Positions 1-16,180 of a stretch of DNA of 64,000 nt are shown here, piece after piece. The position numbers and the translations under genes were made by a program. This stretch comes from Streptomyces sp. Tu6071. GTDB taxonomy: Bacteria > Actinomycetota > Actinomycetes > Streptomycetales > Streptomycetaceae. The notes beneath the pieces are model-generated. The model saw only the letters and a list, made by a program, of their open reading frames with translations, searched no databases and was not told the origin of the DNA. Positions within the stretch are counted from its first letter, which is position 1. Each line of letters opens with the position of its first letter. Location of the stretch: NCBI RefSeq assembly GCF_000213055.1, contig NZ_CM001166.1, forward strand, positions 62,001 to 126,000. Reading direction: 5' to 3'.

Positions 1-689
1 GGCAGATCCGCCGACACGGGAGCGGCGCCCACGGGGAGGTTCAGCAGCAGCGTCTCGAACAGGGTCCTGCCCGCCAGGAGCGTGACGCCCATCTGGCCAA
101 GCGGGCCCGTCGGGTTCCCTGTGGTCTTGCCCGCCTTCGCCTGCGGGTCGCCGACCGCCCCGGTCTTGATCGCCGCCGTATCCCAGCAGTGGGTGTGCAG
201 CAGCCAGAGCACGGCCTGCGCCGGCGTCAGAGCGAACACGTCCCCTTCCGTACGCGAGGCGAACAGCGGGACGTTGTTCCCGGTCGCCGCGTGCGGCACG
301 ATCAGGGCGGCATTCTTCGTCTCCCCCCTCGGGGTGTGCAGCCCGGCCACCTGCGCAAATGGCCGCACCGGATCGAAGAGACCGAACGCCTCACGGTACG
401 CGTCCAGATACGCGGTGAGCCGCGCGCGCTGCTCGGGCGTCCAGCGCCCGGCGGCGAACCATTGCGTCCATTCCCGCTCGTCAGCGGGACGGCCCAGCGC
501 ATCGACGACCACCGGAAGAAGCAGCTGCCGCAGTACCGCCGGCCGCTGGGTGGCACTCTCCACCGCCAGGTCCCCGAACTCGTGCGCGTCCAGCAGCACC
601 GTACTCAGCGAACGCTCCCGCGCCAGACCGCCGACCGCCGGCGGCACACGCAGCCACCGCTCCTCGAGCAGGGAAAACCCAAACCCCAT
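1..689 (-). CDS. casA: Cse1/CasA, type I-E Cascade large subunit (C-terminus beyond window)
   Basis: About 229 N-terminal residues are visible. They begin MGFGFSLLEERWLRV and continue with FDPVRPFAQV and a segment HAATGNNVPLFA, which matches the N-terminal domain of Cse1/CasA. In the family this subunit recognises the PAM and helps recruit Cas3 to the Cascade complex. The ATG at 689 follows AAGGGGG at 694-700, an excellent ribosome site. The gene lies downstream of cas3 on the same strand, but a terminator and its own promoter separate them, so it probably heads a separate Cascade operon that continues past the left edge (casB, casC, casD, casE and perhaps cas1-cas2, none visible). The promoter overlaps the target of the crRNA-like element at 797-884. 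The family assignment is firm; the missing C-terminus cannot be assessed. Confidence 0.93.
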   Translation of the reverse strand, partial: MGFGFSLLEERWLRVPPAVGGLARERSLSTVLLDAHEFGDLAVESATQRPAVLRQLLLPVVVDALGRPADEREWTQWFAAGRWTPEQRARLTAYLDAYREAFGLFDPVRPFAQVAGLHTPRGETKNAALIVPHAATGNNVPLFASRTEGDVFALTPAQAVLWLLHTHCWDTAAIKTGAVGDPQAKAGKTTGNPTGPLGQMGVTLLAGRTLFETLLLNLPVGAAPVSADL

Positions 690-693
690 CAAT

Positions 694-722
694 CCCCCTT
701 GAAACCTTCTCTGTTTAACCTA
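694..722 (-). promoter_or_regulatory. casA core promoter, leader and probable Cascade target
   Basis: Read on the minus strand, TAGGTT (717-722) is a good -10 hexamer, which puts the start of transcription near 710 and the AAGGGGG ribosome site at 694-700. The + strand stretch 705-716 (CCTTCTCTGTTT) is identical to 825-836, the start of the spacer in the degenerate mini-array upstream. Its 5' flank is AAC at 703-705. A complex bound here would cover the start site and the -10 region. Promoter calling is by eye; no strong -35 was found. Confidence 0.6.
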
Positions 723-796
723 CGCACACCCACCACGCGCGCGGGCAGGTTTCCCGCAATCCGATGCGAGAATCCGTTGACCGACAACCGACCCCA

Positions 797-884
797 CCCC
801 TGGCGCTGTCCGCGGGGATGATCCCCTTCTCTGTTTCCGCAGCGGATCGGGAAAGCCGTCGACCCCGCATCACGCGGGGAGACC
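797..884 (+). ncRNA. CreR-like crRNA element: two degenerate repeats around one 32-nt spacer
   Basis: Two decayed repeats lie 62 nt apart, close to the array period. The upstream one (about 797-825) keeps only GCGGGGATGATCC at its 3' side. The downstream one (858-884) reads GTCGACCCCGCATCACG followed by CGGGGAGACC and still folds CCCCGC with GCGGGG. Between them 826-857 is exactly 32 nt, the spacer length of the neighbouring arrays. Its first 11 nt (12 counting the preceding C) are identical to the casA promoter at 705-716, with the seed on the PAM side. In other type I systems such crRNA-like RNAs (CreR) guide Cascade to repress cas promoters without cleavage. The layout and match are seen in the sequence; transcription and repression are inferred. 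Confidence 0.6.
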
Positions 885-886
885 AG

Positions 887-918
887 CCGGGGTGCCCGGC
901 CACCGCCCGGCACCCCGG
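887..918 (-). terminator. Terminator of cas3
   Basis: CCGGGGTGCC (887-896) and GGCACCCCGG (909-918) form a perfect 10-bp stem around a 12-nt loop, four bases beyond the cas3 stop codon. It separates cas3 transcription from casA and also closes the right side of the crRNA-like element. Confidence 0.7.
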
Positions 919-921
919 CCC

Positions 922-3822
922 TCATACCTGCCGCAACCCCAGCACGCCGTCGTACGCCACCGCGAAATCGCCCAGCCGGGCCCTACCCGAGGCGTCCAGC
1001 ACCAGAGCACGGCTGCGGCCGAGCCACGGATGCCCGTGCCAGCCCGGCAGCGGCGCCAGCCCTGCGGCCGCCTTGGTGAACTTCGCGGGCAGCCGCACCA
1101 CGGAACCGAGTACCTCCTCCAGCACCTCTGGAGCCACGTCCCCGTTGACACTCAGCGCCCGCCCCGCAAGCGTCCGGAACGCTCCGTCGTCCCCGTCGCG
1201 GCGCACGAGCACGACCTCCACGGACTCGTCCCCGTCCCGTACCGCCGCCCGCAACGCGTCCTCACCGCCGCCCGCCGTCCCCCCGCCGTAATGCAACCCG
1301 GCCAGCGTCCGCCGCTCGTGCTCACCCGGCCCCGTCAGCAAAAACTGCCGCGCGTTCTGCGCCCGCTCCCGGTCCTGCGTCTCCTGCTCGCTCCGGGCCG
1401 CCTCACCCGCCGTACGCCACCCCTCGGGCAAGAGCGACTCCTCATCCCCGTACACCTCCTCGACCAGAGCGGGCACCCGCCCCGGAACCGGCCACACCCC
1501 GCCCGCACCCGCCTTCGCCCCCACACCCGCACCGGGCAGTACGGCCGCCGTCCGCAACAGCAGATGACGCCCGTAGATCCCCTCACTCGCGGACACGAAC
1601 TCCGGCTCCCGCCCCTCACGAGGACTGAAACCCGTCACGAAGACACGCGGAACCCGCAGCCCCTCCGGCCTCCACGTGCCCTCGTGCCGGTGCAAGCGCC
1701 CCACGCGCTGCAACAAAAGATCCACCGGCGCCACATCCGTGACCAGCACATCCGCATCCACATCGAAAGACTGCTCCGCAAGCTGCGTCGCCACCACGAC
1801 CAACCGCCCCGAACGCGAACGCCCCGCCCCCGGCCCCAGCAGCCGCAAACACTCCTCCGTCAGCTCCGCACGCCGCGCCACCGTGAACCGCGCGTGCAGC
1901 AACCGCACCTCATCCCCGCCAAAACGCCCCCGCAACTCCTCGAAAAGGCTCTGCGCCCGCGCCACCGAATTACGGATCACCAGCGCCGTACCACCCCCGG
2001 CAAGCTCACCGGCCAGCAACTCCCCCACCCGCGCATCCGCAGAAGCCTGCGCCCGCTCCCGCTCCTCACGCGAACTCCCCCGCCCCGGAACCGCCTCAGG
2101 AACCACCCGCACCTCAACCCCGAGATCCGCCCGCCAGCTACCCGTCGCCCGAACCCGGATCTGCGGCTCGCCCCCAGCCGGCGACCACGCGGTCGTCACA
2201 CTCGGATACCCCTCAGCGGCCGGCACCTCGACCCGCAACTCCTCCACGGACGCCGCACCCGCCAGATACGCCTCCAGCAAGCCCCGCCGCTGCGCCGGGG
2301 CCAGCGTCGCCGACAGCACCACCACCGGGACCCCCGCCTGCCCCAGCCACCGCAACGCCTCGTGCAAGAACTGACTCATGTACACGTCGCACGCGTGCAC
2401 CTCGTCCAGCACCACGACCTTCCCGCCCAGCCCCGCCATCCGCAACATCACATGCCGCGTCCGCGTCGCCGCATACAGCAGCTGATCAACCGTCCCCACC
2501 ACGAACGGAGCCAGCAGACCCCGCTTCGACCCCAAAAACCACTCCACCAGAGCCTGACACTCCAGCTCCCCACCCCCCTCCCCGCTCACACCGAACGGAT
2601 CACCAGCCAAACCGAACTCATCCACCCCACCAAAGGCCTCCCTCGCCCCCGCCCCCTCCTCCACCAGCCCCTTCCACTCCCGGTTGAACGCCCGCTTGCC
2701 GTGCAACAGCACCACCCGCGACGCGAACTCCTCCGAAACCGCCCCCAGCCACCCACGCACCCGGGAGAACATCGGGTCACTCGTCGCCTGCGTCGGCATC
2801 CCCACGAACACACCGTCCGCACCAAACCGCGCCGCCAGAACCTCCGCGGCGAACAGCGCCGCCTCCGTCTTCCCCTCCCCCGTCGGAGCCTCCACCACCA
2901 CCAGCCCCGCACCCCCCATATCCCCCATCGCGTCGACGACCATCCGCTGCGCCGGCCGCGGCACACACCCGAACCGCCCCGCAAAAACCTCCCGCCCCGG
3001 CACACCCCGCTCACCCCAGCCACCACGCAGCCCCAGCGCCTTCCACGCCCCCGCGGCCCGCCGACGAGAACCCTCCGCACTCACCTCTCGCAGGTCATCG
3101 ACCCCACCGAAGTACCGCTCGTCGCTCGCGATCCAGTCCGCCATCACCACCAGACCACTCACCTGCAACTGCAATGCCCTCGACGGAACAACCACAGGCT
3201 CCACCTCCGCCGGCCCCGCAAAGCCCACCTCGCGCGAGACCACATCGAGCAGTGCGCGCTGAACCTCCCGCCACACCCCGATCCCGCGCAACTGCCGCTT
3301 CGCGGACCCCGGTTCACGCACGTCCTTCAGCGTCGGGAAAGCCCCGTGGTGACCGGCGACCAGCGGCCACACCCAGTCCACCTGCTCGCCACTCCACCCC
3401 ACCTCCCCCAGCAACTCCCGAACGATCAGCCCACCGGCCCAGTCGTGCCGCCAACGCTGCTTCGCCCCCGCTACAGCCGAAGGCTCGTGCCACGTCAACC
3501 CAGCAGCACGAACCGCCTCAGCCCCCTCATCCCACAACCGCTGATGCGCAGGCGTCGCCTTCCCGCAGTCATGCACCGCGCACAACCACACAAACAACCC
3601 ACGCCCACACCCCACCCCACCCGCCACCTCATCCAGCGCCGAACGCGTCGCCGGCGCCAAGAACTCCTCCCACATCAGCTCCGCAACCGCCGCCGTATCC
3701 AGCAGATGCCCCAGCAGAAGACTCGTCCTCCCCGCAGCCCTCTCCCGCGACTTCCCCCACAACGTCTCCAGCCCCCGCACCACCGCCGCGCCGTACCTCA
3801 ACGCCAGCTCATTCACATCCAC
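922..3822 (-). CDS. cas3: Cas3, type I-E HD nuclease-helicase
   Basis: Cas3 is the effector that unwinds and degrades DNA marked by Cascade. The product is 966 residues, normal for the family. The N-terminal HD domain shows GHLLDTA (about 39), CAVHDCGKATPAH (81-93), WRHDWAGG (124) and AGHHGAF (156). The SF2 helicase part shows Walker A APTGEGKTE (312-320), the DEVH box VVLDEVHACD, the SAT motif VVLSATLAP and motif VI QRVGRLHRH. All key residues are present, so it looks active. I chose the GTG at 3822 (reading VDVNELALRYG) because GGTGGGGG lies just upstream; the frame stays open further upstream but that stretch overlaps decayed CRISPR repeats. It stands alone between its own terminator and the relic array upstream. 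Confidence 0.95.
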   Translation of the reverse strand: MDVNELALRYGAAVVRGLETLWGKSRERAAGRTSLLLGHLLDTAAVAELMWEEFLAPATRSALDEVAGGVGCGRGLFVWLCAVHDCGKATPAHQRLWDEGAEAVRAAGLTWHEPSAVAGAKQRWRHDWAGGLIVRELLGEVGWSGEQVDWVWPLVAGHHGAFPTLKDVREPGSAKRQLRGIGVWREVQRALLDVVSREVGFAGPAEVEPVVVPSRALQLQVSGLVVMADWIASDERYFGGVDDLREVSAEGSRRRAAGAWKALGLRGGWGERGVPGREVFAGRFGCVPRPAQRMVVDAMGDMGGAGLVVVEAPTGEGKTEAALFAAEVLAARFGADGVFVGMPTQATSDPMFSRVRGWLGAVSEEFASRVVLLHGKRAFNREWKGLVEEGAGAREAFGGVDEFGLAGDPFGVSGEGGGELECQALVEWFLGSKRGLLAPFVVGTVDQLLYAATRTRHVMLRMAGLGGKVVVLDEVHACDVYMSQFLHEALRWLGQAGVPVVVLSATLAPAQRRGLLEAYLAGAASVEELRVEVPAAEGYPSVTTAWSPAGGEPQIRVRATGSWRADLGVEVRVVPEAVPGRGSSREERERAQASADARVGELLAGELAGGGTALVIRNSVARAQSLFEELRGRFGGDEVRLLHARFTVARRAELTEECLRLLGPGAGRSRSGRLVVVATQLAEQSFDVDADVLVTDVAPVDLLLQRVGRLHRHEGTWRPEGLRVPRVFVTGFSPREGREPEFVSASEGIYGRHLLLRTAAVLPGAGVGAKAGAGGVWPVPGRVPALVEEVYGDEESLLPEGWRTAGEAARSEQETQDRERAQNARQFLLTGPGEHERRTLAGLHYGGGTAGGGEDALRAAVRDGDESVEVVLVRRDGDDGAFRTLAGRALSVNGDVAPEVLEEVLGSVVRLPAKFTKAAAGLAPLPGWHGHPWLGRSRALVLDASGRARLGDFAVAYDGVLGLRQV

Positions 3823-4030
3823 CGAAAACCCCCACCTCACACACGAATTCGAGAACCGGATCGTAAACGGCACCACCGACAACACCCTCTGAACTGCACA
3901 AACGATAAGGAGAATCACCAAAACGACACCCGCCACCCCCGACCCCGTGATACAAGGGCACCGCCCGAACCCAGATGGGCTGACCCGCACCCGCAGGCCC
4001 CCACCCCCCCACCGCCGCGGCGACACGCGT

Positions 4031-4473
4031 GCCACCCGCCGCCAGGGATGTTCCGGGCCGCTTCGAGGAGACAGGCAGCATCGCCCGGTTGCCCCCGCGC
4101 CTGCGGGATCCTCCAAGCTGGACCTCATATGGCAGGACCCGTCTGGCGTCGACCCCGCGCACGCGGAGATCCTCCGTTGAGGCCGCAGCCGGGCATCCAC
4201 TCGCTCAGGTCGCGGGTACCCTCCTACCCGTCGATCCACCGGTCGTGAAAGCCCTCGGTCGGCCCCGTGCTCGTAGGGATGGGGCGCCCGGACCGTCCTG
4301 GTGGCGACATCAGCGTGACGGCGTCGACCTCGCGCTCGCGGGGGATCCTCCGATCCTCGCGCGCCTGGAAGCGGACGGTCCGCTGTCGACTCCACGCTCG
4401 CGGGGATCTTCCGGCCGCTCGGTGCGCGCGCGGCGAGCGATCCTGTCGGCCCTGCGCTGGTGGGGATCAGTCG
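4031..4473 (+). CRISPR. Relic array upstream of array A (about 8 decayed repeats)
   Basis: Repeat-like units start near 4031, 4088, 4148, 4200, 4258, 4323, 4385 and 4445, about 60 nt apart. Several keep the palindromic core, for example GTCGACCCCGCGCACG at 4148. None is a perfect copy and types are mixed (GTTGCCCCC and GTCGACC forms). The last unit, GTCGGCCCTGCGCTGG at 4445, and the preceding spacer recur before other leaders. It is probably the dead distal end of an older array whose leader was lost. Confidence 0.75.
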
Positions 4474-4637
4474 CGCCGCCGAGCGGCTTTCGGGGGTTTT
4501 CGGGGGTTACGGTGTTGACGTGGAGGGTGAGAGCTGGTGGGGGCGAGCTGTTGTTTCTGTTCTGGGCTCAGTAGCCGGCCGGAAAGCAACTGAAGGAAAA
4601 CCGGCAGACCGGCTGGTATGACTGCAGGTCAGCAAGC
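4474..4637 (+). promoter_or_regulatory. Leader of array A (family 1)
   Basis: This segment is shared with the leaders of arrays D, G, I, J and M. It contains TTACGGTGTTGACGTGGA, a GGTGAGAGCTGGTGG block, TTCTGTTCTGGGCTCAG and GGAAAGCAACTGAAGGAAAA. It ends in TGGTATGACTGCAGGTCAGC directly before repeat 1. TATGAC at 4617-4622 could be an extended -10 giving a start about 9 nt before the first repeat. It is also the expected site of spacer insertion. Confidence 0.8.
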
Positions 4638-5762
4638 GTCGGCCCCGCGCACGCGGGGATCTTCCAGCTGACCCGGGGGCGTCGCCGGGAGAACGAGGGT
4701 CGGCCCCGCGCACGCGGGGATCTTCCGGGCGCGGGCGGGGGGCCGGACGTCCTCAACGGGTCGGCCCCGCGCACGCGGGGATCTTCCGCGTCTGCGGGCC
4801 GCCTGGCGGCGCGTCGGCGCGTCGGCCCCGCGCACGCGGGGATCTTCCGGTCTCGTTCAGCGAGGCCGCGCTCGAGCGGGCGTCGGCCCCGCGCACGCGG
4901 GGATCTTCCGTCCCACAGCCGGTAGAGCATCTGGAACGGCACGTCGGCCCCGCGCACGCGGGGATCTTCCGAACCAGCGTCGGCGTGACAACAAGGGGCA
5001 AGGTGTCGGCCCCGCGCACGCGGGGATCTTCCTGGTCGTGAGCTGTTCGCCGATCAGGTGCACGGGTCGGCCCCGCGCACGCGGGGATCTTCCGACGCAG
5101 GACGGCCGCTCGCCCGCGCTCGAACTGTCGGCCCCGCGCACGCGGGGATCTTCCCACGGTGTCGGTCGGGATGAGGACCAGTGGCATGTCGGCCCCGCGC
5201 ACGCGGGGATCTTCCGCGGATCAGGGGCAGTCGTCGCAGGCTCCACCGGTCGGCCCCGCGCACGCGGGGATCCTCCGCGGCTGCACGCCTCGCGGCGGCG
5301 CGTCGGCGCGTCGGCCCCGCGAGCGCGGGGATCCTCCGGACAAGCCGTACCTGTCCGCCGAGTCGGCTCCGGTCGGCCCCGCGCCCGCGGGGATCCTCCG
5401 ATCGCCTCCGCGAGGCCGAAGCGAGGGAGGTGGTCGGCCCCGCGCCCGCGGGGATCTTCCCAGGCCGGGTGCCTCCGGCTCGGCACGGCGGGCGTCGACC
5501 CCGCGCACGCGGGGTCCTCCGCTGGAGAGCGGCGGCGCGCGCACCTGGCAAGGTCGACTCGCGCTCGCGGGGGATCCTCCGGCGCCCTGTGCTCCCCCCT
5601 CGGCCCGCTGGGTCCCGACCCCGCGCTCGCAGGGATCCTCCTCCGCTGGCTCGCCGACGTGTTCAGGGCCATCGGCCCAGCGCTCGCGGGGATCCTCCGG
5701 GACTCTTGCGCGAGGCCGCAGGCACACCGAGCGTCGACCCCACGCTCGTAGAGATCGTCCGC
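4638..5762 (+). CRISPR. CRISPR array A, about 19 repeats
   Basis: The repeat is 29 nt, period 61 (32-nt spacers). The leader-proximal form is GTCGGCCCCGCGCACG then CGGGGATCTTCCG. From 5249 the 3' part becomes GATCCTCCG and the loop changes (GAGC, then GCCC), and from 5494 repeats are visibly decayed (5494, 5553, 5614, 5672, 5734). The distal four units, 5520-5762, are nearly duplicated at the end of array J (23,090-23,331). The CCCCGCG/CGCGGGG hairpin is typical of type I-E repeats cut by Cas6e. Confidence 0.97.
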
Positions 5763-5916
5763 GCTCTCGGTGTGGCTGGCCGGCGATACGGTGTACGTGT
5801 GGGGGTGAGAGCTGGTGGGTTCGGGCGGTTGTTTCTGTTCTGGGCTCAGCGGCCGGACCGGAAAGCCACCGAAGGGAAACTGGCAGACCTGCCGGTATGA
5901 CCGCAGGTCAGCAAGT
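5763..5916 (+). promoter_or_regulatory. Leader of array B (family 2)
   Basis: It shares the 3' half of the family 1 leader (GGTGAGAGCTGGTGGG, TTCTGTTCTGGGCTCAGC, GGTATGACCGCAGGTCAGC) but starts with its own GGCCGGCGATACGGTGTACG. It is nearly identical to the leader of array K at 23,332-23,486. Confidence 0.8.
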
Positions 5917-6311
5917 GTTGCCCCCGCGCCTGCGGGGATTTTCCCGAGCCTGAGCGCGAACAGGCGCTCGGGAGGATGTTGCCCCCGCGCCTGCGGGGAT
6001 TTTCCTACTGGGCGTGTGCGTCGGTGTTCCCACCGATCGTTGCCCCCGCGCCTGCGGGGATTTTCCGGACCTCTTCGAGTCGTTCGCCGCCCTCGCCCGG
6101 TTGCCCCCGCGCCTGCGGGGATTTTCCCTCACCAGCTACGACCGTCCCACCGCCCGGAACGTTGCCCCCGCGCCTGCGGGGATTTTCCGAGCAGCCGCAG
6201 ACCACCGACGTGTGGAACGTGGTCGCCCCCGCGTCGGCGGGGATTTTCCGTCCACCCCCGCCGCCTCGGCCCCGGACATGTGGTTGCCCCCGCACCTGCG
6301 GAGATGCTCCG
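5917..6311 (+). CRISPR. CRISPR array B, 7 repeats
   Basis: Five near-perfect repeats start at 5917, 5978, 6039, 6100 and 6161, with the form GTTGCCCCCGCGCCTG then CGGGGATTTTCC. Two decayed ones follow at 6222 and 6283. The repeat matches that of leaderless array F but not those of flanking arrays A and C. The array ends next to the regulator island that starts at 6497. Confidence 0.95.
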
Positions 6312-6496
6312 GTTCGGTGGGCGGAGTGCCACGGCTCGATCGGGGCCGGGTTGTCGCCGTGTTCGTTGGTGTCATCGCCTATGGGCTTCTCCTCTTCTTG
6401 GTGGATGAGGTGTTCTGCGTCCCGAGTGGGGCGGAAGTCGTAGGTCACTCTGGGCTGCACGGCCCCTTCTCAGCGTAGGACGTGAGGCGGTACGAC

Positions 6497-6766
6497 TCAC
6501 GTCCAGGGCTGGCAGGCGAAGAGACGGCCGGCCGTGCCGGGGCCCGACATGGGTTCCACGACATCGATGAGGGTGACGTCTTCGGCGAGGCCGCGGTGCC
6601 ACGCGCACCAGGCGATGGTGCGGGCGAGGCCGCCGCTTATCGTTCGTCCCTGCCGTAGCAGCAGCGGCGGCAGCCGCGGGGGAACCAGGCTGGCCCGGTG
6701 CGGGTGGCGGGGCGGGCGCCGAGGTCGATGTCGTCGATGCCGGGCTGGAGCGTGGTCTCGCACCAC
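6497..6766 (-). CDS. Small conserved-looking protein, start uncertain
   Basis: The C-terminal half, ISGGLARTIAWCAWHRGL then DVTLIDVVEPMSGPG and RLFACQP, reads like a real small Streptomyces protein. The N-terminal 40 residues of the open frame are Arg/Pro/His-rich and are probably only the shifted frame of the overlapping upstream gene. No ATG or GTG lies near the conserved part (about 6645), so a CTG or a coupled start after the stop of the upstream gene at 6637 is possible. It is the last gene of a three-gene leftward operon. I know no function; WCAWH and FACQP suggest a small metal-binding or redox protein, as speculation. Confidence 0.45.
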   Translation of the reverse strand: MVRDHAPARHRRHRPRRPPRHPHRASLVPPRLPPLLLRQGRTISGGLARTIAWCAWHRGLAEDVTLIDVVEPMSGPGTAGRLFACQPWT

Positions 6767-6846
6767 ACGCAGGCGGCGCCGCGCCGCTGCTCGGCCGTGA
6801 GCGTCTCGACGGCGGGAAGGAGGTCCGCGTCCAGTTGGGTACTCAC
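6637..6846 (-). CDS. Small Cys-rich hypothetical protein
   Basis: The product is 69 residues: MSTQLDADLL, then CVWCETTL and a C-terminal RGCRRCCYGRDER. CxxC plus the C-terminal CRRCC suggest a zinc ribbon. It starts with GTG at 6846 overlapping the upstream stop (GTGA), so translation is probably coupled. It is the middle gene of the leftward operon facing the DUF6879/DUF5753 pair, a neighbourhood common in Streptomyces. Function unknown. Confidence 0.65.
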   Translation of the reverse strand: MSTQLDADLLPAVETLTAEQRRGAACVWCETTLQPGIDDIDLGARPATRTGPAWFPRGCRRCCYGRDER

Positions 6847-7298
6847 CGCTCCATCACCTCCATCTCCCGCGCGTCGAGGAGCGCTTCACGGAGGAGGCGT
6901 GCGGGAGTGAGGAGACCGGTGCCGTAGGGCGGGTGCAGCCAAGTGCGCCCGGCGGCGCCGATGCCGGGTGCGGGGCAGTCGAGCACCCACCCGGCGGGGT
7001 GGGCGAGGGTGCCCGGGACGTCGGTGAGGAGGGTCGCGGTCCCGGCGGCCACGAGCCACCAGGCGCGGCGAGCGTCGGAGGACCCCTGGACGGGACCGGC
7101 GTTGCCGCTCATCCGGAGCACGCACAAGGCGTCGATCGACGGGTAGAGCGGGGCCTCGACGACCCGCCAGATTCCCGTCGAGGGCACCGGCGCGAGCCGT
7201 TCCCGCTGCCAGTCGGCGTAGGCGGGGGACGGGTCGAGCAGGGTTTCGGTCAGCCATGCGCACCCGGGGTGGGCCCTCGGGAGGAGAGTCGAGGTCAT
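6843..7298 (-). CDS. Hypothetical protein, first gene of leftward operon
   Basis: The product is 151 residues starting MTSTLLPRAHPGCAWLTE. The ATG at 7298 follows AGGAGGCGC, a very strong ribosome site, so I prefer it to upstream in-frame starts. Recognisable stretches are WRVVEAPLYPSIDALCVL and ARRAWWLVAAG, and a C-terminal WLHPPYG. Some resemblance to the N-terminal part of bifunctional primase-polymerase-like proteins is possible but not firm. It is divergent from the 7530 gene; the 230-bp gap between them must hold both promoters. Confidence 0.65.
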   Translation of the reverse strand: MTSTLLPRAHPGCAWLTETLLDPSPAYADWQRERLAPVPSTGIWRVVEAPLYPSIDALCVLRMSGNAGPVQGSSDARRAWWLVAAGTATLLTDVPGTLAHPAGWVLDCPAPGIGAAGRTWLHPPYGTGLLTPARLLREALLDAREMEVMER

Positions 7299-7529
7299 GC
7301 TGCGCCTCCTGCGCCCGGCCCCGTAGGTCGCGGCGTGCACGGGCTTGCGATAGGGGCTGCCGCAGATCACAGACGCTAGGGATGTGACGTGCGACACGGC
7401 CAGGCATGTGCAGATCTGTGCATCCGCCTCCCCTCGAACGGGTGGTCAACGAGCTGGGCCCTTGACGGGGACCGCCAGTTCGCTGACGGTGTCGCACACA
7501 GCTGCACACCCCCATACCTGGAGGGCACC

Positions 7530-7790
7530 ATGTCGTTACGGTTCATCGGGATCGACCCGAACACAGGAGACAAGGAGAGCCCGACCGTCTGGGTGGACGA
7601 GGAGCACAGCGAGCTGGTCTTCCAGGGCTGGGTGCCGTCACCGGCCCTGGAGGCGGAGTGCACGGCCACGGAGGTACCGGGCCACGCGAAGGGGATTCCC
7701 GAGGGGGAAGCGGTCGTCCGCATCCCGGCCCGGATGGTGGAGATGGTGAGGGAGGCGTGCGATGCCATCGAGCAAGCCCACGTTCGATGA
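7530..7790 (+). CDS. Small hypothetical protein in DUF6879/XRE operon
   Basis: The product is 86 residues starting MSLRFIGIDPNTGDKESPTV. The ATG at 7530 has GGAGGG six bases upstream; the frame is open further upstream but without a better start. It is acidic, with the C-terminal segment RIPARMVEMVREACDAIEQ. It overlaps the next gene by 29 nt. Proteins of this size often precede DUF6879 and DUF5753 genes in Streptomyces. A possible -35 TTGACG is at 7462-7467 with only a weak -10. Confidence 0.7.
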   Translation: MSLRFIGIDPNTGDKESPTVWVDEEHSELVFQGWVPSPALEAECTATEVPGHAKGIPEGEAVVRIPARMVEMVREACDAIEQAHVR

Positions 7791-8286
7791 GCTGATCGCG
7801 ACGTGCCGGAGCGCTCTCCACCTGGAGATGCGCGACGCCTACGCCGTGGACTACGAGAAGGGTCCCTTCGCGGACTGGCGCGCCGGACACCGGCTCAACC
7901 CGGCGGAACGCGAGACCTGGTGGCGTCCGTGGCTCGACCTCATCAGCGAAACGGTCGACCGCGGCGCGGAAGTGCGGCGCGCGCGGATCGTGTCCGAGCC
8001 GGTCAGCGAGTACACCCGCTTCCTCTACGACGGCACCTTCACCAATGTGGCCGCCGGGGAGCAGGTCCGCTGGCTGCCCCGACGCCAGGCATCCGACATT
8101 CCCCTGCCGGGCAATGACTTCTGGCTCTTCGACGGCGTGTGGGTGCACTGGAACCACTTCGCCGGGGACGGGTCATCGCTCGGCGCGGAGATCACCGACG
8201 ATCCCCGCGCGGCGGCTGTGTGCCGTGACGCCTTCGAGCAGGTGTGGGAACGAGCTACACCGCACGACGAGTACAAGATCCGCTGA
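7762..8286 (+). CDS. DUF6879 family protein
   Basis: The product is 174 residues with the family signature: FDELIATCRSALHLEMRDAY at the N-terminus, then RRARIVSEPVSEYTRF, VAAGEQVRWLPRRQASDI, and PGNDFWLFDG followed by WNHFAGDG. DUF6879 proteins are found beside XRE/DUF5753 regulators across Streptomyces; their biochemical role is not known to me. Length is typical. The downstream regulator starts 14 nt after the stop, so the two are surely one transcript. Confidence 0.85.
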   Translation: MPSSKPTFDELIATCRSALHLEMRDAYAVDYEKGPFADWRAGHRLNPAERETWWRPWLDLISETVDRGAEVRRARIVSEPVSEYTRFLYDGTFTNVAAGEQVRWLPRRQASDIPLPGNDFWLFDGVWVHWNHFAGDGSSLGAEITDDPRAAAVCRDAFEQVWERATPHDEYKIR

Positions 8287-8299
8287 GCAGAAAGACCGC

Positions 8300-9166
8300 G
8301 TGCCGCCCCCCATGCCCACCTCTCCGTCGTCGTCCGCCCAAGCGGCCCGACAGGCCGTGGCCGAGCGGCTGCGCGACCTCCGCCGAGCCGCAGGGCTCAC
8401 GGTGACAGAGCTGGGGGCGGCGTGCGGCTGGCACCACGCAAAGACGTCCCGGATCGAGAACGCCCGTACCGCGCCCTCGGCCAAGGACATCACCGCCTGG
8501 TGCCGTGCATGCGGAGTTGAGGCGCTGACCGGGGACCTGGTGGCGCAGTCCCTCAACGCCGAGTCGATGTACAGCGAGTGGCGCGACCAGATGCGGGGCG
8601 GAATAAAGCGCCTCCAGGAGTCCTTGACGGACTTCTACCGGGAGACGCGCCTGTTCCGGGTCTACTCCTCCACGCTCATCCCCGGGCTGTTGCAGACGGA
8701 GGGATACGCCGCGGGCCTCCTCACGGCCATCGCCGACTTCCGCCAGATCCCGGTGAACGACGGGGCGGAGGCGGGCGCCGCCCGGGTGGCCCGGTCTCGG
8801 GTCATCTACGAGCCCGGCCACCGCTTCGTCCTCCTGATCGAGGAGGCCGCCCTCTACTACCGGATCGGCGACGACGAGGCAATGGCCGCCCAACTCGGCT
8901 TTCTCCTCACGGCTGGTGCCCTGCCCGCCGTGTCGCTGGGCATCGTCCCCTCGTCGCACCCACAGCGTCGGCAGTGGCCGCACGAGACGTTCCACATGTA
9001 CGACGACGCCTTCGTGTCGGTCGAACTGCTCTCCGCGCAGGTGAAGCTGACCCAGCCCTCCGAGATCGCCCTGTATTTGCGGGCGTTCGAAGAGCTGCGG
9101 AGCATGGCCGTCTACGGCGCGGACGCGCGCGCTCTGGTCGTGCGGGCGATCGACGCGTTGCGGTAG
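8300..9166 (+). CDS. XRE-family regulator with DUF5753 domain
   Basis: An N-terminal helix-turn-helix (VAERLRDLRRAAGLTVTELG, then KTSRIENARTAPS) is followed by a DUF5753 domain: FYRETRLFRVYSSTLIPG, LLQTEGYAAGLL, RFVLLIEEAALYYRIGD and FHMYDDAFVSVELL. This is the standard Streptomyces architecture (about 285 residues), thought to sense an unknown ligand and act with its DUF6879 or DUF397 neighbour. I used the GTG at 8300 (288 residues) because an ATG at 8312 has no ribosome site; either is possible. The gene ends only 100 bp before the first repeat of array C, so readthrough could feed that array. Confidence 0.85.
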   Translation: MPPPMPTSPSSSAQAARQAVAERLRDLRRAAGLTVTELGAACGWHHAKTSRIENARTAPSAKDITAWCRACGVEALTGDLVAQSLNAESMYSEWRDQMRGGIKRLQESLTDFYRETRLFRVYSSTLIPGLLQTEGYAAGLLTAIADFRQIPVNDGAEAGAARVARSRVIYEPGHRFVLLIEEAALYYRIGDDEAMAAQLGFLLTAGALPAVSLGIVPSSHPQRRQWPHETFHMYDDAFVSVELLSAQVKLTQPSEIALYLRAFEELRSMAVYGADARALVVRAIDALR

Positions 9167-9266
9167 CCGAAACGGTAGAGGCGGCCCTCCACGCGCGTGG
9201 CGGGGGAAGGTCGCTGAAGTTGCTGAAAACCGGCTGCCGGGTCAGTAACGTTGCAGGTCACGAAGT
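9167..9266 (+). promoter_or_regulatory. Leader of array C (divergent family)
   Basis: Only 100 bp separate the regulator stop from repeat 1. A perfect 12-bp palindrome CCACGCGCGTGG (9189-9200) may end the upstream gene. The 3' end keeps the leader core in altered form: AAAACCGGCTGC, then TGCAGGTCACGAAGT before the repeat. It lacks the GGTGAGAGCT block of the other leaders. Confidence 0.65.
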
Positions 9267-10022
9267 ATGGTCCCCGCACGCGCGGGGATGGCCCCACGCT
9301 CGGTCGTGGCCTGGGATGCCCGTGCTGATGGTCCCCGCACGCGCGGGGATGGCCCCATGGACACCCCCGACGAGGACTTCCAGACGGTATGGTCCCCGCA
9401 CGCGCGGGGATGGCCCAAACAGCAGGTCAGCGACATGCCGGAAGTCGAAATGGTCCCCGCACGCGCGGGGATGGCCCCGAAGGTCGCCTTCTCGGGTTTC
9501 ACGGATGCGGATGGTCCCCGCACGCGCGGGGATGGCCCCCAGGTGCCGCAGAGCGAGCACTGCCACATCGAATGGTCCCCGCACGCGCGGGGATGGCCCC
9601 CACTCGTCCTCGTAGCCGTGCGTCACCCACCTATGGTCCCCGCACGCGCGGGGATGGCCCCCGGGCTGGGTCCGTCGGTAAGACGACCGTGGGATGGTCC
9701 CCGCACACGCGGGGATCCTCCACGGCGGCCTCCACCGCCACCGCGCTCATCGGCGTCGGCCCCGCGAGCGCGGGGATCCTCCGCGGGCGAAGCGCTGCGC
9801 GACCTTCTCGCAGAAGTCGGCCCCGCGCCCGCGGGGATCCTCCGCCGTTGTAGACGTTCACGACAGACCGGTCCTGGTCGTCCCCGCGTGCGCAGGGATC
9901 CTCCGTGCGGACTTGAGGTCATCGCCAGACATTTCCGGTCGGCCCCGCGCACGCGGGGATCTTCCGACCGCTCGGGGCGGCGCGCCGGCCGAACCTGTCG
10001 GCACCGCGCTCGTGGGGATCAG
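9267..10022 (+). CRISPR. CRISPR array C, two repeat classes in one phase (13 repeats)
   Basis: Seven repeats from 9267 to 9633 have the form ATGGTCCCCGCACG then CGCGGGGATGGCCCC. The repeat at 9694 is a hybrid with the same 5' half but ending GGGGATCCTCC. From 9755 the array continues in the same 61-nt phase with the ordinary GTCGGCCCC class (9755, 9816, 9877, 9938), and a decayed unit at 9997 borders the next leader. The proximal class resembles the other common Streptomyces I-E repeat ending GATGGTCCC. Confidence 0.95.
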
Positions 10023-10179
10023 TCGCGCCGCCGAGTGGGTTTCGGGGGTTACGGTGTTGATGTGGAGGGTGAGAGCTGGTGGAGACGGGCTGTTGTTTCT
10101 GTTCTGGGCTCAGCGGCCGGTCGGAAAGCAACTGAAGGAAAACCGGCAGACCCGCTGGTATGACTGCAGGTCAGCAAGT
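10023..10179 (+). promoter_or_regulatory. Leader of array D (family 1)
   Basis: It contains TTACGGTGTTGATGTGGA, GGTGAGAGCTGGTGG and TTCTGTTCTGGGCTCAGC and ends GGTATGACTGCAGGTCAGC before the repeat at 10180. Together with the preceding terminal unit it is a diverged copy of the block at 4411-4637. Confidence 0.8.
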
Positions 10180-12245
10180 GTCGGCCCCGCGAGCGCGGGG
10201 ATCCTCCGTACAAGCTCCACATCTCGGGGACGGAGCTGTAGTCGGCCCCGCGAGCGCGGGGATCCTCCGGGCAGCCATGCCCGGCATCCTGCCGCCGCCC
10301 CGTCGGCCCCGCGAGCGCGGGGATCCTCCGCAGAAGACGCGGGCGTTGGCGGGAGGCCGCGTGTCGGCCTCGCGAGCGCGGGGATCCTCCGATCTACTGC
10401 TCCGAGGCGTGCAAGAAGCGCGGGTCGGCCCCGCGAGCGCGGGGATCCTCCGCCCCAGCCGACGCCGGTCACCAGGGGCGAGTGGTCGGCCCCGCGAGCG
10501 CGGGGATCCTCCGCTCTGCAAGGTCTCCCCGAGGCGGTAGCGCCCGTCGGCCCCGCGAGCGCGGGGATCCTCCGTCCTTGACGTGCACCACCTCATCTCC
10601 CCAGGAGTCGGCCCCGCGAGCGCGGGGATCCTCCGCCGTGGTCGCCCCCGAACAGGGGACCCGATGCGTCGGCCCCGCGAGCGCGGGGATCCTCCGGGTC
10701 GCCTGCACCGTGAGGAACGCCGCGACGGCGTCGGCCCCGCGAGCGCGGGGATCCTCCCTTGCCCAGTGCGTCCTTGTCCTCCCAGAGCTCGTCGGCCCCG
10801 CGAGCGCGGGGATCCTCCGAGCTTGGCGGCTACAGCACCACCGGGACCCCGGTCGGCCCCGCGAGCGCGGGGATCCTCCGTGTAGAGCCATGACGTCTCC
10901 TGACTGGGTATCGTCGGCCCCGCGAGCGCGGGGATCCTCCGTGGAGGAGGCTATGGCGGCGCCACGGCGGCCGGTCGGCCCCGCGAGCGCGGGGATCCTC
11001 CGCTCTCCCTTCGCGCGGCCGACCGGGCCATGCAGTCGGCCCCGCGAGCGCGGGGATCCTCCTGGGGATGGGATCACATCCCGGTCACCGACGAGGTCGG
11101 CCCCGCGAGCGCGGGGATCCTCCGGACGGCACCCGGATGCAGGTCCGCCCCGCGTCGGCCCCGCGAGCGCGGGGATCCTCCCTCGACCTGTCCGCGCACA
11201 TCGTGTTCGACCACGTCGGCCCCGCGAGCGCGGGGATCCTCCGCCGCTGTCCGGGGAGGCGTGGACTTCGAGGCGGTCGGCCCCGCGAGCGCGGGGATCC
11301 TCCGGGTGCTCTCCGAGGAACTCTGGCGGGGGCCCTGTCGGCCCCGCGAGCGCGGGGATCCTCCGCTCGGTGCGGAGGCGGGCGAGTTCCGGCTCGCGTC
11401 GGCCCCGCGAGCGCGGGGATCCTCCGCCCTGACCGAGCGCACGCTCACCGCCGCCTAGGTCGGCCCCGCGAGCGCGGGGATCCTCCCCGCGCGTGAGTCT
11501 GGCCCGGCGCGCGGATGAGCGTCGGCCCCGCGTGCGCGGGGATCCTCCCCGGTCTTCCCGAGGCCGGGTGGCGAGGGGCGGGTCGACCCTGCGCTCGCGG
11601 GGATCCTCCCTTGAGGGACAGGGTCGCGAGGGTCTCGGCCAGGTCGGCCCCGCGCACGCGGGGATCCTCCGTTCAGCGAGCACGACACCGTGACCGTGCT
11701 CGAGTCGGCCCCGCGAGCGCGGGGATCCTCCGGGCGTCGAGACGAGACAGGATGGTGGTGCGAAGTCGGCCCCGCGAGCGCGGGGATCCTCTGCCGCCCC
11801 GGCCGGGCTCGTCGGCGCGGTTGAAGTTGGCCCCGCGTGTGCGGGGATCCTCCGTGAGTACGTCGTACGGCGAGGAGCACCGCCTCGTTGGCCCCGTCCC
11901 CGCGGGGACTCTCCCCTCGCGGTCATCTCGCTGGTGGAGTCGACCCCGCACACGCTGGGATGCTCTGGGCACCACGGTGTCTATGACCTCGACGCTCTGG
12001 TCGGCCTCGCACGCAGGGATCCTGCAACGTCCATGTCGCCCCGTGTCGGCGGGGAGCCTTACGGTCCTGTGCGTGACGGCACCCGCGCCCTGCAGTTGTC
12101 CCTGTCTCGAGGCGAGCTTTCCGGGCGTGCATAGGCACGGTCGGGACCAGGAGCTGGTGCCCGCGCGCGTGCGGGGATTCTCCCATGAGTCGGACAGTAT
12201 GGGTCTGCATCTGAGGGGTGCCCCCGCGCGTGCGGGGATTCTCCG
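10180..12245 (+). CRISPR. CRISPR array D, about 33 repeats (largest array)
   Basis: Twenty-two near-identical repeats run from 10180 to 11459 (GTCGGCCCCGCGAGCG then CGGGGATCCTCC); one spacer, before 11154, is 3 nt short. After 11521 the repeats change loop and decay (11582, 11643, 11704, 11765, 11826, 11887, 11939, 12000), ending with two GTGCCCGCGCGCGTGCG-type units at about 12157 and 12218. The long homogeneous part suggests recent, active spacer gain at this leader. Confidence 0.97.
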
Positions 12246-12509
12246 GTCCTCACCGTCCGGAAGGGGCCAGGGCATCACAACCCCTTGCGCTTGCCGGGAA
12301 AAAAGAAATTCAGAGTCTCGATGAAAAATAATTTCAAGGGGAGTCTTTGAAAGTGCTGGTAGGGAACAACCTCTGCGGGACGTTTGATGCGCACTGTAAT
12401 CGCCGCGCCGCGAGCATCGGTCCTCACATTCGCAAGAGGGGTGAGTGGGGAAAAATGCCAGAACGGGTGATCTCCACCTATCGCTAGACTGTGATGGCAG
12501 GCATCGACC
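12246..12509. other. Gene-free stretch after array D
   Basis: No convincing gene is visible. The GC content drops locally (around 12300-12350), unlike the flanking arrays, which suggests imported or decayed DNA. Confidence 0.4.
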
Positions 12510-12735
12510 CCTATGACCAGATCGCGTCGATGGGGATGTTCCGCCCTTCCGCTTACCGGGCGAAGCTGGTTCGCCGTTGCCCCTGCGCCGCGCAGGGAAC
12601 CTTTCTCAGCCGCCGGACAGTATCCGGCGGCTGAGACTTCGTAGCCCCCGTGGTCGCGGAGATTTTTCGTCGGAGGGTCGTACCCCTTGTAGCGGGCGCC
12701 TGCTTGGCGGCGTCCCTGCGGGAGATACACGCCAT
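12510..12735 (+). CRISPR. Relic array of four decayed repeats
   Basis: Repeat 3' cores recur at about 62-64 nt: TGGGGATGTTCC (12531), CGCAGGGAACCTTTC (12591), GCGGAGATTTTTCG (12656) and CTGCGGGAGATAC (12716). The unit at 12641 reads GTAGCCCCCGTGG and that at 12576 GTTGCCCCTGCGCC, so the ancestor was of the GTTGCCCCC type (as arrays B and F). The spacer position between the second and third unit is filled by a perfect hairpin. Confidence 0.55.
12605..12635. repeat. Perfect 13-bp inverted repeat inside relic array
   Basis: CTCAGCCGCCGGA and TCCGGCGGCTGAG are separated by CAGTA. It lies between two decayed repeats where a spacer would be. No U-run follows, so it is not a classic terminator. Confidence 0.7.
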
Positions 12736-13483
12736 GGCGGAGATACATAGCTCTGCGTTCAGCCCGAGCATCGACATCGGGAGCAGCTCGGTTTCCGCCC
12801 AGTCCTTGGGCAGTGCCTATAGGCGTTCGGCAATGGCCTTGGTAGTGCCGCTGCCGTCGTGTTCGGCGCGGACACAGCCGACGCTGCCGCGCAGAGCAAG
12901 CCCGGGAAGGCCCACAGATGCCCATCTACCGCTCTCTACCGCCTTCTCAGCGGGCTGAACCTGCCGCTCGGACCCGCAACATTCCGCTCTCCACTGACAT
13001 AATTCATGAATCCCAAACAGTTACCGGGCGTGCGATGCTAACGTCACGTATAGCAGAGGACCACCGTGGTGGTGAGCACTCACCAGCGCAGTGGTGCATG
13101 CAAAAGAGGGAGGGGCCGCTACCTGGTTGGCAACGACCCCTCGTGTGTGGCGTTTGGCCGACTACGAGCAGACCCAGATCATCAGCTGGAGCTGCAACTC
13201 CATCAGGCTGACGATGAAGGTCCATAGCTCGTAGTCAGGCCGGTCATTGCAGATCAACGCCGCTCCCTTGACCCCGCTTTCCGCAGTGCGGCCGTGGCGG
13301 GGGTCGATTCCATCCGGCCGCGCGGACCGGGTGGGACAGCAACTCGTCTGTAGACGACTACGCCGAGGTCGACTCTAGAGGTACGTGTGCAGCGAAAGAT
13401 GCCGTTCATCAAAAGCGCTCATATTTGAGGCGCAATACAACACGCGTTCTTTCATAAGTGATCCCTTGGGGCTCGCAACACGA
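12736..13483. other. Gene-free stretch between relic array and IS remnant
   Basis: Only short frames without ribosome sites are seen, including a 46-codon frame near 13090. The stretch contains a near-palindrome ACCACCGTGGTGGT (13060-13073) and AGGTCGACTCTAGAGG at 13366-13381. Its base composition is more even than its surroundings. I see no supported gene. Confidence 0.4.
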
Positions 13484-13660
13484 TCATGGGCGGGTCTTGT
13501 TAGGGCGTCGGTAGCAGATGAGGCTGCAGACGAGGGAGACGAAGGCGTCGTGGAGTTCGGTGCGGCGTTCCCAGCGGACGGCGAGGCGTTTGAACTGGTG
13601 GAACAGGGCGATGGTCTACTCAACGACGTAAGCGGAGTTTGCCCAGGCCCTTGATGTTCG
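13484..13660 (-). pseudogene. Remnant of an IS5-type transposase (C-terminus)
   Basis: In minus-strand frames this encodes IKGLGKLR, a frameshift, YVVE followed by an in-frame stop, then TIALFHQFKRLAVRWERR and TELHDAFVSLVCSLICYRR. That is the typical C-terminal tail of Streptomyces IS5-family DDE transposases. Everything upstream is missing, and the remnant abuts the first decayed repeat of array E with no leader between. The insertion probably removed the leader of array E. Confidence 0.75.
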
Positions 13661-13670
13661 GACGCACTCC

Positions 13671-14491
13671 GTGACTCCGCGCACGCGGGGATCCTGCTCC
13701 ATCCCGGTCAGACAGGTGGAGCGACTGTTCGTCAGCCCCGCTTGCGCGGGATCCTCCGGGTGGCGAGGTGTCACTCCTCAACGCCGTCGTCGCCGACCCC
13801 CGCGCACGCGGGGATCTTCCGGAGTTGGCGTTCTGGTCTGCGGACCGGAGGGGGCCGGCCCCGCGTCCGCGGGGATCCTCCGCGGCAGACCGCCGACGCC
13901 GAGGCCGTAGCGCAGTCGGCCCCGCGTCCGCGGGGATCCTCCGCGGTACGTCAGGTCGTTGGTCGTCGCGTTCGGGTCGGCCCCGCGCTCGCGGGGATCC
14001 TCCGGCCACGACCTCGGCGGCGGCCAGGATGAGGACGTCGGCCCCGCGCTCGCGGGGATCCTCCGTTCACCTGTCCGCTCTTCTGCCCGGCAACCTGGTC
14101 GACCCCGCGCTCGCGGGGATCCTCCTTGCGAGACGCCTCCTGCACGTCCCCGAGCGCCGTCGACCCCGCGCTCGCGGGGATCCTCCGCGGCTGATGGTGG
14201 AGGGCGGTGGGACGATCCAGTCGGCCCCGCGCTCGCGGGGATCCTCCTCGTCGGCGGGAAGTCGTGAGGACGTGACGGGAGTCGGCCCCGCGCTCGCGGG
14301 GATCCTCCGGCGGCGACGGCGCGCTCCAGGCGCTCTCGCTCGTCGGCCCCGCGCTCGCGGGGATCCTCCGTCCATCTACGAGGACACCGCCGCGCACGTC
14401 CTGTCGGCCCCGCGCCCGCGGGGATCCTCCCGAGATGAACCGGTCCGCCGCGCCGAGCCCGGCCGTCGGCCCCGCGCTGCGGGGATTCTCC
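13671..14491 (+). CRISPR. CRISPR array E, 14 repeats, leaderless
   Basis: Repeats start at 13671, 13731, 13792, 13853, 13915, 13976, 14037 and then every 61 nt to 14403, with a shortened last unit at 14465. The main form is GTCGGCCCCGCGCTCG then CGGGGATCCTCC. Unlike the other arrays the three left-most repeats are the most mixed, and no leader precedes them. The sequence after the last repeat (CTCCATGCCCGGTCAACGCC) is also a spacer in array F. Confidence 0.93.
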
Positions 14492-14514
14492 CTCCATGCC
14501 CGGTCAACGCCCGA

Positions 14515-14828
14515 CCCCCGACCGGACTGGCTGGAGCACCGGCGAAGTCGGTGGCCGAACACCGCGAATCTCCACCTGCTGATCAACAACGAGACCGCCA
14601 CCAAGACCAGCCGAGCCAGTAACCACTGGATCAGCGCCTCAATGCGAGGGCAGGACGCGACACTGGAGCGGCTCCGCGTCGAACCGGCAACTCGAAGAGG
14701 TCCTGACCCACGGGCCCGATCCACTCCATCTCGCCGAGGTGTTCGGTCTCGACGAGAAGACAGCGATGCGCTACGCGGACTCCGCACGATCCCTGCTGAA
14801 ACAGGGCGCTGAACAGCAACTTCGATGA
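14515..14828 (+). pseudogene. Truncated, frameshifted tyrosine recombinase
   Basis: The first part reads DWLEHRRSRWPNTANLHLLI then ATLERLRV. A frameshift near 14680 leads to RQLEEVLTHGPDPLHLAEV, FGLDEKTAMRYADSA and RSLLKQGAEQQLR, ending at TGA 14826-14828. This matches the C-terminal half of a Streptomyces tyrosine recombinase that contains WL-HRR-RWPNTANPHLLI. The N-terminal domain is absent. It lies directly after array E, suggesting that a mobile element once split the arrays here. Confidence 0.7.
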
Positions 14829-14871
14829 AACCTGCTCGACCAGGACGCACCGTGGAGGGAATCATGGGCGA

Positions 14872-15381
14872 GTGACGTCGACCGAAGCAGCAGCAATCGC
14901 TCTACAGGACCATGCCGCCCTCTGGAGCATGGGGGAAATCCGTGCGAGCGATGTCGTCAATGCCGCCTGTGAGGCGCTCGTCGCCGGACTCGACACCCCC
15001 GGCCTTCGAGTCCTCGCCGCCTGCACACGCGCCGAGTCGGACTACGACGTCCACGAGTTGCTTCCTGAGGCACTCAACGAACTCGGCCTCACCTTTTATC
15101 CCATCGCCAGCGATGCCGGCCAAGAAGCCGCTGCCCGAGCGCTCGCACGCCGCATGCTCGCGGGTGAGCTGACACCTCGGGAGTTCACAGTCCGCATTCA
15201 CCAGCGCTACGGACATGAGCTGCCACTGACTGAGCGGCTCGCCGAACTCGATGACGAGTACGACGTCCTCGAATACGGCGACGGAACCGTGGACCACGTT
15301 GATGTCGAGGTCACCGCCGAAGCGCGCCGCCTCGCAGCCCACCCCCACGTTCCAGCCGAATCCACGGACACGCCCAGCTGA
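14872..15381 (+). CDS. Hypothetical protein, possibly contact- or immunity-related
   Basis: The product is 169 residues starting MTSTEAAAIALQDHAALWSM. The GTG at 14872 has GGAGGGA 11 nt upstream. It is helical and acidic with no transmembrane segment, including FTVRIHQRYGHELPLTERLA and ELDDEYDVLEYGDGTVDHVD. The mid-part REFTVRIHQRYGH followed by a DDEYDVLEY segment recalls small Streptomyces proteins next to integrases or toxins, but I cannot name a family. Its only neighbours are the broken recombinase and leaderless array F, so it is probably cargo of a lost element. Confidence 0.6.
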   Translation: MTSTEAAAIALQDHAALWSMGEIRASDVVNAACEALVAGLDTPGLRVLAACTRAESDYDVHELLPEALNELGLTFYPIASDAGQEAAARALARRMLAGELTPREFTVRIHQRYGHELPLTERLAELDDEYDVLEYGDGTVDHVDVEVTAEARRLAAHPHVPAESTDTPS

Positions 15382-15640
15382 TGCTCACGGACCGACCGCG
15401 AGTTCCCGCCGAACAGGCTTCAGTTTCCCTGAACCCATGGGGCTCCCCGGGTGTGAGTAGTTGCGGTACAGGAAGTGCCGTTGAGATTGATCATGGTCCG
15501 GCTGGGTGTCGGGGTGAGCGGGTCGTCCGGCTGCCGGATGCGAACTCGGCGGGGCGGGGGATGTCGTCAGCGTCCTGGAGATCGGCGAAGTCGGCGTGCG
15601 CCTGGGCGACGGCTTCGCTGCGCTGGCTGGCTCAGAGCGG

Positions 15641-16026
15641 GTTGCCCCCGCGCCTGCGGGGATTTTCCGATCCCGCCGTGGTTCCAGGCATGCCTCGACC
15701 TGTTGCCCCCGCGCCTGCGGGGATTTTCCGATCCCGCCGTGGTTCCAGGCATGCCTCGACCTGTTGCCCCCGCGCCTGCGGGGATCCTCCCTCCATGCCC
15801 GGTCAACGCCCGACCGTCGACCCCGCGCACGCGGGGATCCTCCGGTGGCTCCGATGCCCGTCTCCTACCGCGACATGTCGTCCCCGCGTGCGCGGGGACC
15901 TTCCGACGGGCGTGCAGGCCGGTCTGGAGCACATGCAGTTGGCCGGCGGGCGCGGGGATCTTCCGGCCGCTCGGTGCGGCGCGCGGCGAGCGATCCTGTC
16001 GGCCCTGCGCTGGTGGGGATCAGTCG
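15641..16026 (+). CRISPR. CRISPR array F, 7 repeats, leaderless mosaic
   Basis: Repeats start at 15641, 15702, 15763, 15816, 15877, 15938 and 15998. The first three are of the GTTGCCCCCGCGCCTG type (the third switches to a GATCCTCC end) and the first two spacers are identical. The others are GTCGACC, GTCGTCC and GTTGGCC types. The spacer before 15816 is shortened to about 25 nt and is shared with the end of array E; the spacer before 15938 is shared with array L. No leader lies upstream (15382-15640 shows nothing recognisable). Confidence 0.9.
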
Positions 16027-16180
16027 CGCCTCCGTGCGGCTGTCGGGGGTTACGGTGTTGACGTGGAAAGTGAGGGCTGGCGGGGGCGGGCTGCTGTTTT
16101 TGTTCTGGGCTCAGCGACCGGCCGGAAAGCAACTGAAGGAAAACCGGCAGACTCGCTGGTATGACTGCAGGTCAGCAAGT
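16027..16180 (+). promoter_or_regulatory. Leader of array G (family 1)
   Basis: It contains TTACGGTGTTGACGTGGA, a GTGAGGGCTGGCGGGGG version of the block and GGTATGACTGCAGGTCAGC before the repeat at 16181. It is most similar to the leader of array M. Confidence 0.8.

Follow-up and report, generated by a model that had tools for sequence, protein, structure and literature searches.

The 232-nt gap between casA and cas3 of Streptomyces sp. Tu6071 carries on its + strand a small element that resembles a miniature CRISPR array, which raises the question of whether this element controls the neighbouring cas genes. The initial annotation of the window (the whole 64-kb stretch of DNA analysed here) had read it as a CreR, a cas-regulating RNA of the kind known for types I-B, I-E and V-A (PMC13131331, citing Liu et al. 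2023, Cell Host Microbe; this and the other papers are cited from excerpts). casA runs past the start of the window from its ATG (689-687, − strand) and is followed in its own genome by casB, casC, casD, casE and then cas1, forming a type I-E operon. The CRISPR-Cas locus is located on a contig of 147,347 bases (G000:C2), one of two in the 7.5-Mb assembly. When plasmid records were searched with positions 640-1400, one match was obtained, to cas3 of Streptomyces globosus. From 4638 onward, the + strand holds arrays with several repeat variants, and between 4638 and 14000 neighbouring arrays differ in this variant (e.g., ...GGGGATCTTCC, ...GGGGATTTTCC, ...GGGGATGGCCC, and ...GGGGATCCTCC). A leader-like stretch of 171 nt occurs three times ahead of arrays, at 4495-4665 and, with 63% and 92% identity to that copy, at 5774-5944 and 10037-10207. 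Degenerate repeat remnants occupy 4040-4482, between the start of cas3 and the leader-like 4495-4637.

Read directly from the sequence, the element contains the two degenerate repeats and the 32-nt spacer that the initial annotation had described (Table 1). The GGGG boxes of the two repeats (814-817 and 876-879) are spaced 62 nt apart, and the first belongs to a GCGGGG (812-817) that, with the handle directly after it, forms the end of the first repeat. The described match between spacer and casA leader was also found as claimed: 825-836 is identical to 705-716 over 12 nt, including the C that precedes the 11-nt seed, and the 5′ flank of the target is AAC. One detail required correction, as the seed had been said to overlap the predicted −10 of casA, which it only abuts. 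The target sits 17 nt upstream of the casA ATG, between the start codon and this −10, and the guide's own DNA has the 5′ flank CCC. As expected of a CreR, 792-886 is an isolated mini-array with degenerate repeats beside cas genes, and it is conserved in near relatives. It differs from an ordinary type I-E array in having one spacer and two repeats that are unlike each other and unlike the arrays of the window.

The second repeat folds well (853-886, −16 kcal/mol, z −3.43), and the first-repeat side (788-857) folds no better than its shuffles (z +0.54). The first repeat, the 5′ arm of which is weak, probably begins further left, at 792 or 776, and would then have a larger loop; the search for this arm was run without a control. 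The long hairpin that follows the second repeat is kept in the alignment of near relatives and is probably a terminator for one or both strands; the terminator scan called no T-run terminator at 886-919. Another terminator-like hairpin, at 814-826, was set aside as part of the handle (one found against 0.5 expected in shuffles). The sigma-70 consensus scan found no promoter on either strand of 640-960, and both promoters in Table 1 are therefore predictions from reading and from conservation among 12 aligned relatives. In this sense the target lies in the predicted casA promoter.

Table 1. Coordinates of the casA–cas3 element, its flanking genes, and a second, weaker element in the window.
Feature	Position	Strand	Remarks
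casA/cse1, first 229 codons	1-689	−	TIGR02547, 86.3 bits (cut-off 70.05); Pfam PF09481
PAM-like flank AAC of target	703-705	+	AAN precedes 54/59 PAM-free perfect sites
Target (protospacer seed) in casA leader/start region	706-716	+	Identical to spacer nt 1-11
Predicted casA −10, TAGGTT	717-722	−	Conserved CTAG box there in relatives; without sigma-70 consensus match
Possible CreR promoter, TGC-GAGAAT	765-773	+	Extended −10-like; TGc.A.AAT conserved in 12 aligned near relatives
Degenerate first repeat	792-825	+	8-nt handle ATGATCCC at 818-825; GGGATnnnCCn handle conserved
CreR spacer, 32 nt	826-857	+	Seed is nt 1-11
Degenerate second repeat, intact stem	858-886	+	CCCCGC 863-868 / GCGGGG 874-879
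Long hairpin between CreR and cas3 stop codon	886-919	+	Fold of 780-925, z −3.03
cas3	922-3822	−	Cas3 HD, helicase and C-terminal domains; start (about 3822) estimated
Second-element target, AAC + CCCTTGCGCTT	12279-12292		
Second-element repeat-like stem + handle ATGTTCCG	handle ends 12543		
Second-element spacer, 32 nt	12544-12575		
Second-element second repeat	from 12576		
Second-element hairpin	12604-12636		

We then surveyed the regions upstream of casA for covariation between guide and target. Homologues of casA were taken from 100 relatives, the genome contigs (31 loci), and 392 genomes of the genus, 394 of the family, and 394 of the class. The sets share members, and each search contributed at most 30 loci in addition to the 31 from the contigs. 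tblastn placed casA in 132 of 133 loci, and removal of 13 with a duplicate upstream stretch left 119 distinct regions, which are not independent because near relatives remain among them. A candidate was defined as an antisense handle-like site 60-460 nt upstream of casA, matching 6 or more of the 7 fixed letters and followed by a repeat-like stem matching 5 or more of 6; the handle pattern had been relaxed to 6/7 after an initial stricter version missed L034 and L047. This handle-plus-repeat search found candidates in 81 of the 119 regions and none in the other 38.

In 54 of these 81 loci, spacer positions 1-5 and 7-11 all matched a site in the same region that is preceded by AAN. When guides were instead paired with the regions of loci whose seed differs from theirs, 3 of 6,408 cross-pairings matched, which ruled out chance as the origin of the matches. 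The initial annotation had proposed the architecture of a CreR autorepressor and, as a check on it, a search of the cas3–casA gaps of other Streptomyces for such degenerate repeats and covarying seed/promoter pairs; this comparison of sequences supports the proposal. Five further loci matched at 9 of 10 positions (L007, L048, L051, L090, and L103), giving 59 loci; in the remaining 22 candidate loci, no site of the own region reached nine matched positions. The 59 loci carry 44 seeds, and the casA tree requires a minimum of 42 seed changes, through which the target still matches. This tree was built by a "quick" method from 58 rows, with L056 excluded as too short, and has long branches at L022, L011, L121, and L060; the match of L022, on a very long branch and with its target 232 nt away, may be due to chance. 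The sister loci L075 (21-nt spacer) and L005 (32 nt) have different seeds, each of which fits its own target.

Among loci with a casA fragment sharing 70% identity or more with that of the window, all 12, including the window itself, carry the element. At lower identity the element was present in 13 of 22 loci (60-70%), 26 of 36 (55-60%), 7 of 22 (45-55%), and 1 of 27 below that. By reading, L043, L044, L050, L003, L076, and others are seemingly without such an element. In a small hold-out sample of eight fresh casA loci (L157, L158, L159, L162 = L164, L165, L166, L167, and L168), one (L165) carried the element, with an AAC flank, 10 of 10 positions matched, and position 6 mismatched. A looser search (4/7 letters, no second-repeat condition; cross-pair rate 18/3,532) added, outside the 59, the believable cases L004 and L074, with 20-nt spacers by reading; its matches in L071, L055, L020, and L025 look like chance and were likewise left out. 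L040, also uncounted, has a CreR-like guide and a target that by reading seems one base short near position 6. In L092 and L071, an ordinary-looking array lies upstream of casA, where relatives have a CreR.

For each single position among 1-5 and 7-11, guide and target were identical in 56-59 of the 59 loci; the figure was 11 at position 6 and 8-18 at positions 12-16. As the scoring itself skips position 6, the control omitted each of the 11 positions in turn for every candidate, with no PAM required. When position 6 was omitted, 55 loci were found, and in 45 of these that position was a mismatch; omission of any other position gave 10-11 loci, of which 0-1 were mismatched. The 59 PAM-free sites in these 55 loci comprised 54 starting with AAN (21 AAC, 18 AAG, 14 AAT, and 1 AAA) and five starting with CTG, all in L092 within repeats of an ordinary array. 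In E. coli Cascade, position 6 is a base flipped out of the hybrid (excerpts of PMC5904413), and a review names AAN as the effective PAM in the type I-E system of S. avermitilis (PMC12231136). The changes of seed, the free position 6, and the AAN flank thus indicate that guide and target have been kept matched by a Cascade-like reader. The AAC flank of the window target counts against the CreR reading when set beside newly acquired spacers of S. avermitilis, which used AAG almost without exception (from excerpts of PMC4762764).

A pattern search of the 7.5-Mb genome found AANCTTCTNTGTTT once, at the casA target. This bears on the possibility that the RNA guards the system like CreA of CreTA, by silencing a toxin, with control of casA secondary or absent. 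CreA shares with our element two degenerate repeats, the first more degenerate, and an 11-bp seed match to a promoter, with Cascade acting as the repressor (excerpts of PMC9458426 and PMC10989794); it differs in silencing a toxic RNA, the window element being directed at casA. The sole genomic target stands so close to casA, 17 nt ahead of its ATG, that no space is left for a toxin gene under the targeted promoter, and in 36 of the 59 loci target and casA start are no more than 40 nt apart. We consider toxin silencing very improbable, and retain autorepression of casA as the preferred reading.

A scan of the + strand of the window from 1 to 16500 gave 135 handle-like sites, four of which match an AAN site in the 64 kb at the ten seed positions, at distances of 120 nt (the casA CreR), 262 nt (12544), 30 kb, and 51 kb. 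The match at 12544 outlines a second element (Table 1), with 10 of 10 seed positions matched, position 6 mismatched, and a target pattern that occurs once in the genome. Across 33 records with 2,868 handle-plus-repeat sites, 25 matches lay within 500 nt, compared with one in the distance control, and among those 25 only 12279-12636 and one match in L042 are not casA CreRs. By count alone, 12279-12636 does not go beyond chance, and its stand-alone build is the sole argument for a second, weaker element. It was not found in the 20 relatives searched, an empty result that carries no weight, and plasmid records gave no match to 12240-12640. Between the second target and its guide lies a 44-aa frame (12353-12487), with an RBS-like AAGGGGAG at 12336-12343, for which the searches run found no homologue and no Pfam match.

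We further measured spacer length, with the handle as one limit and the point five nt ahead of the second stem as the other. The 59 CreR spacers were 14 (13 loci), 15 (1), 20 (12), 21 (5), 26 (4), 32 (23), or 33 nt (1) long; 52 had lengths of 14, 20, 26, or 32 nt, the remaining seven were one nt longer, and none measured 16-19, 22-25, or 27-31 nt. Spacers under about 13 nt would be missed, because the candidate search took in about 13-44 nt. In ordinary arrays, sampled on the 21 strands that held enough repeats in 33 records (the window, the stretch before it, and 31 named loci), 660 of 707 intervals were 32 nt and 28 were 33 nt long (688/707 together), and none was 14, 20, or 26 nt. On the casA tree, the CreR length classes change at least seven times. 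For type I-F1, spacer length is given as 6N−4 for N Cas7 subunits, with a lower limit of about 14 nt for a stable complex (excerpts of PMC7296934), and the CreR lengths equal 6N−4 for N = 3 to 6, plus one nt in 7/59. As pairing ends at nt 11 over the 59 loci, guide length would follow assembly, not pairing. We lean towards the reading that type I-E CreR guides of actinobacteria have been resized by whole Cas7 steps, giving graded small Cascades (32, 26, 20, and 14 nt for 6, 5, 4, and 3 subunits) that regulate and cannot cut. With the same moderate inclination, we read the smallest guides (14 nt, 3 Cas7) as reaching the smallest stable size of a type I-F1 Cascade. This 6N−4 length ladder is possibly new.

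These lengths also bear on whether the element is a functionless, worn-out remnant of an ordinary array that matches the casA leader by chance. Arrays and degenerate repeat remnants do lie close by (4040-4482), and some casA loci lack the element, but guide and target stay paired through the recorded seed changes, own regions match far more often than crossed ones, and the shorter length classes do not occur in ordinary intervals. Unless the comparison is faulty, the covariation refutes this reading, which we hold to be even less probable than toxin silencing. Least probable of all is a repeated site for a protein regulator, such as two operators, for although two similar 11-nt words do lie about 120 nt apart between genes that we describe as divergent, the shared word takes 44 forms across the 59 loci, one copy stands behind a crRNA-like handle (by virtue of the search) and the other behind an AAN that was not required, and the distance to the second repeat holds a 6-nt register.

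Because of the covariation and the freedom of position 6, we infer a Cascade-dependent repression of the cas genes, and we are highly confident that the window element is a CreR-type autorepressor of a type I-E system, with transcription, processing, loading, repression, and release proposed as follows. Transcription of a short RNA would begin at about 780 and proceed to the right, in the direction leading away from casA, and Cas6e would cleave this RNA at both degenerate repeats, after which the guide would be loaded into Cascade. This complex would bind the AAC-flanked site at the casA transcription start through ten base pairs (1-5 and 7-11) and block RNA polymerase. Ten pairs would be too few to license Cas3, sparing the locus from cutting, and the guide DNA, with its CCC flank, would not be targeted. 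Repression of the casA operon would last until Cascade is drawn away by ordinary crRNAs or an anti-CRISPR; for CreR, release by competing crRNAs or by anti-CRISPR loss of Cascade is reported in reviews (PMC12737573, PMC13131331, and PMC12948488).

Data from E. coli bear on this model in both directions. About 5 bp suffice there for type I-E binding, and interference and priming require more than 18 bp (PMC5904413, in part), a pattern that the seed-only match, read by analogy as binding without cleavage, fits. Easy repression of casA is disfavoured because, in the excerpts of the same study, seed-only off-target binding left transcription unchanged; distal mismatches weakened repression. We counted for the CreR reading that type I-B CreA represses mainly via its 11-bp seed (excerpts of PMC10989794). 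All 18 guides of 14, 15, or 26 nt (group B) have their target 84-128 nt upstream of casA. Control of another gene by group B was at first suspected, but L058, the one tested, has cas3 upstream and a target that by reading lies between −35-like and −10-like boxes, so control of casA was kept as the reading.

In the literature searched, outside which most subscription papers lie, there was no report of such elements in actinobacteria and no paper that brings together CreR, Streptomyces, and type I-E. The element resembles CreRs, as known here from excerpts of reviews, in being a mini-array beside cas genes with a guide that partly matches a cas promoter; compared on that basis, the survey differs in showing a free position 6 and a length ladder of 14, 20, 26, and 32 nt. 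In the autorepression of SpyCas9, the guide is a long tracrRNA. That system likewise has an effector that represses its own genes and is released by anti-CRISPR proteins (work cited in the available part of PMC13131331), the difference being Cas9 there and Cascade with a mini-array in the window. Engineered Cascades are comparable in that 6-nt spacer steps lead to fewer Cas7 subunits and short guides repress without cutting (excerpts of PMC7296934 for I-F1 and PMC10989794 for I-B), but they are artificial, whereas the lengths of 14, 20, 26, and 32 nt are natural in CreR loci.

The comparison by itself indicates that Cascade very probably regulates its own operon in many Streptomyces and their relatives, hosts whose native type I-E systems are of interest as tools. 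The freedom of position 6 and the 6N−4 lengths would be an evolutionary trace of Cascade structure, and the length ladder opens the existence of small natural Cascades to testing. If the model is true, cas expression would rise when crRNAs or anti-CRISPRs occupy Cascade, and users of the native systems should allow for it.
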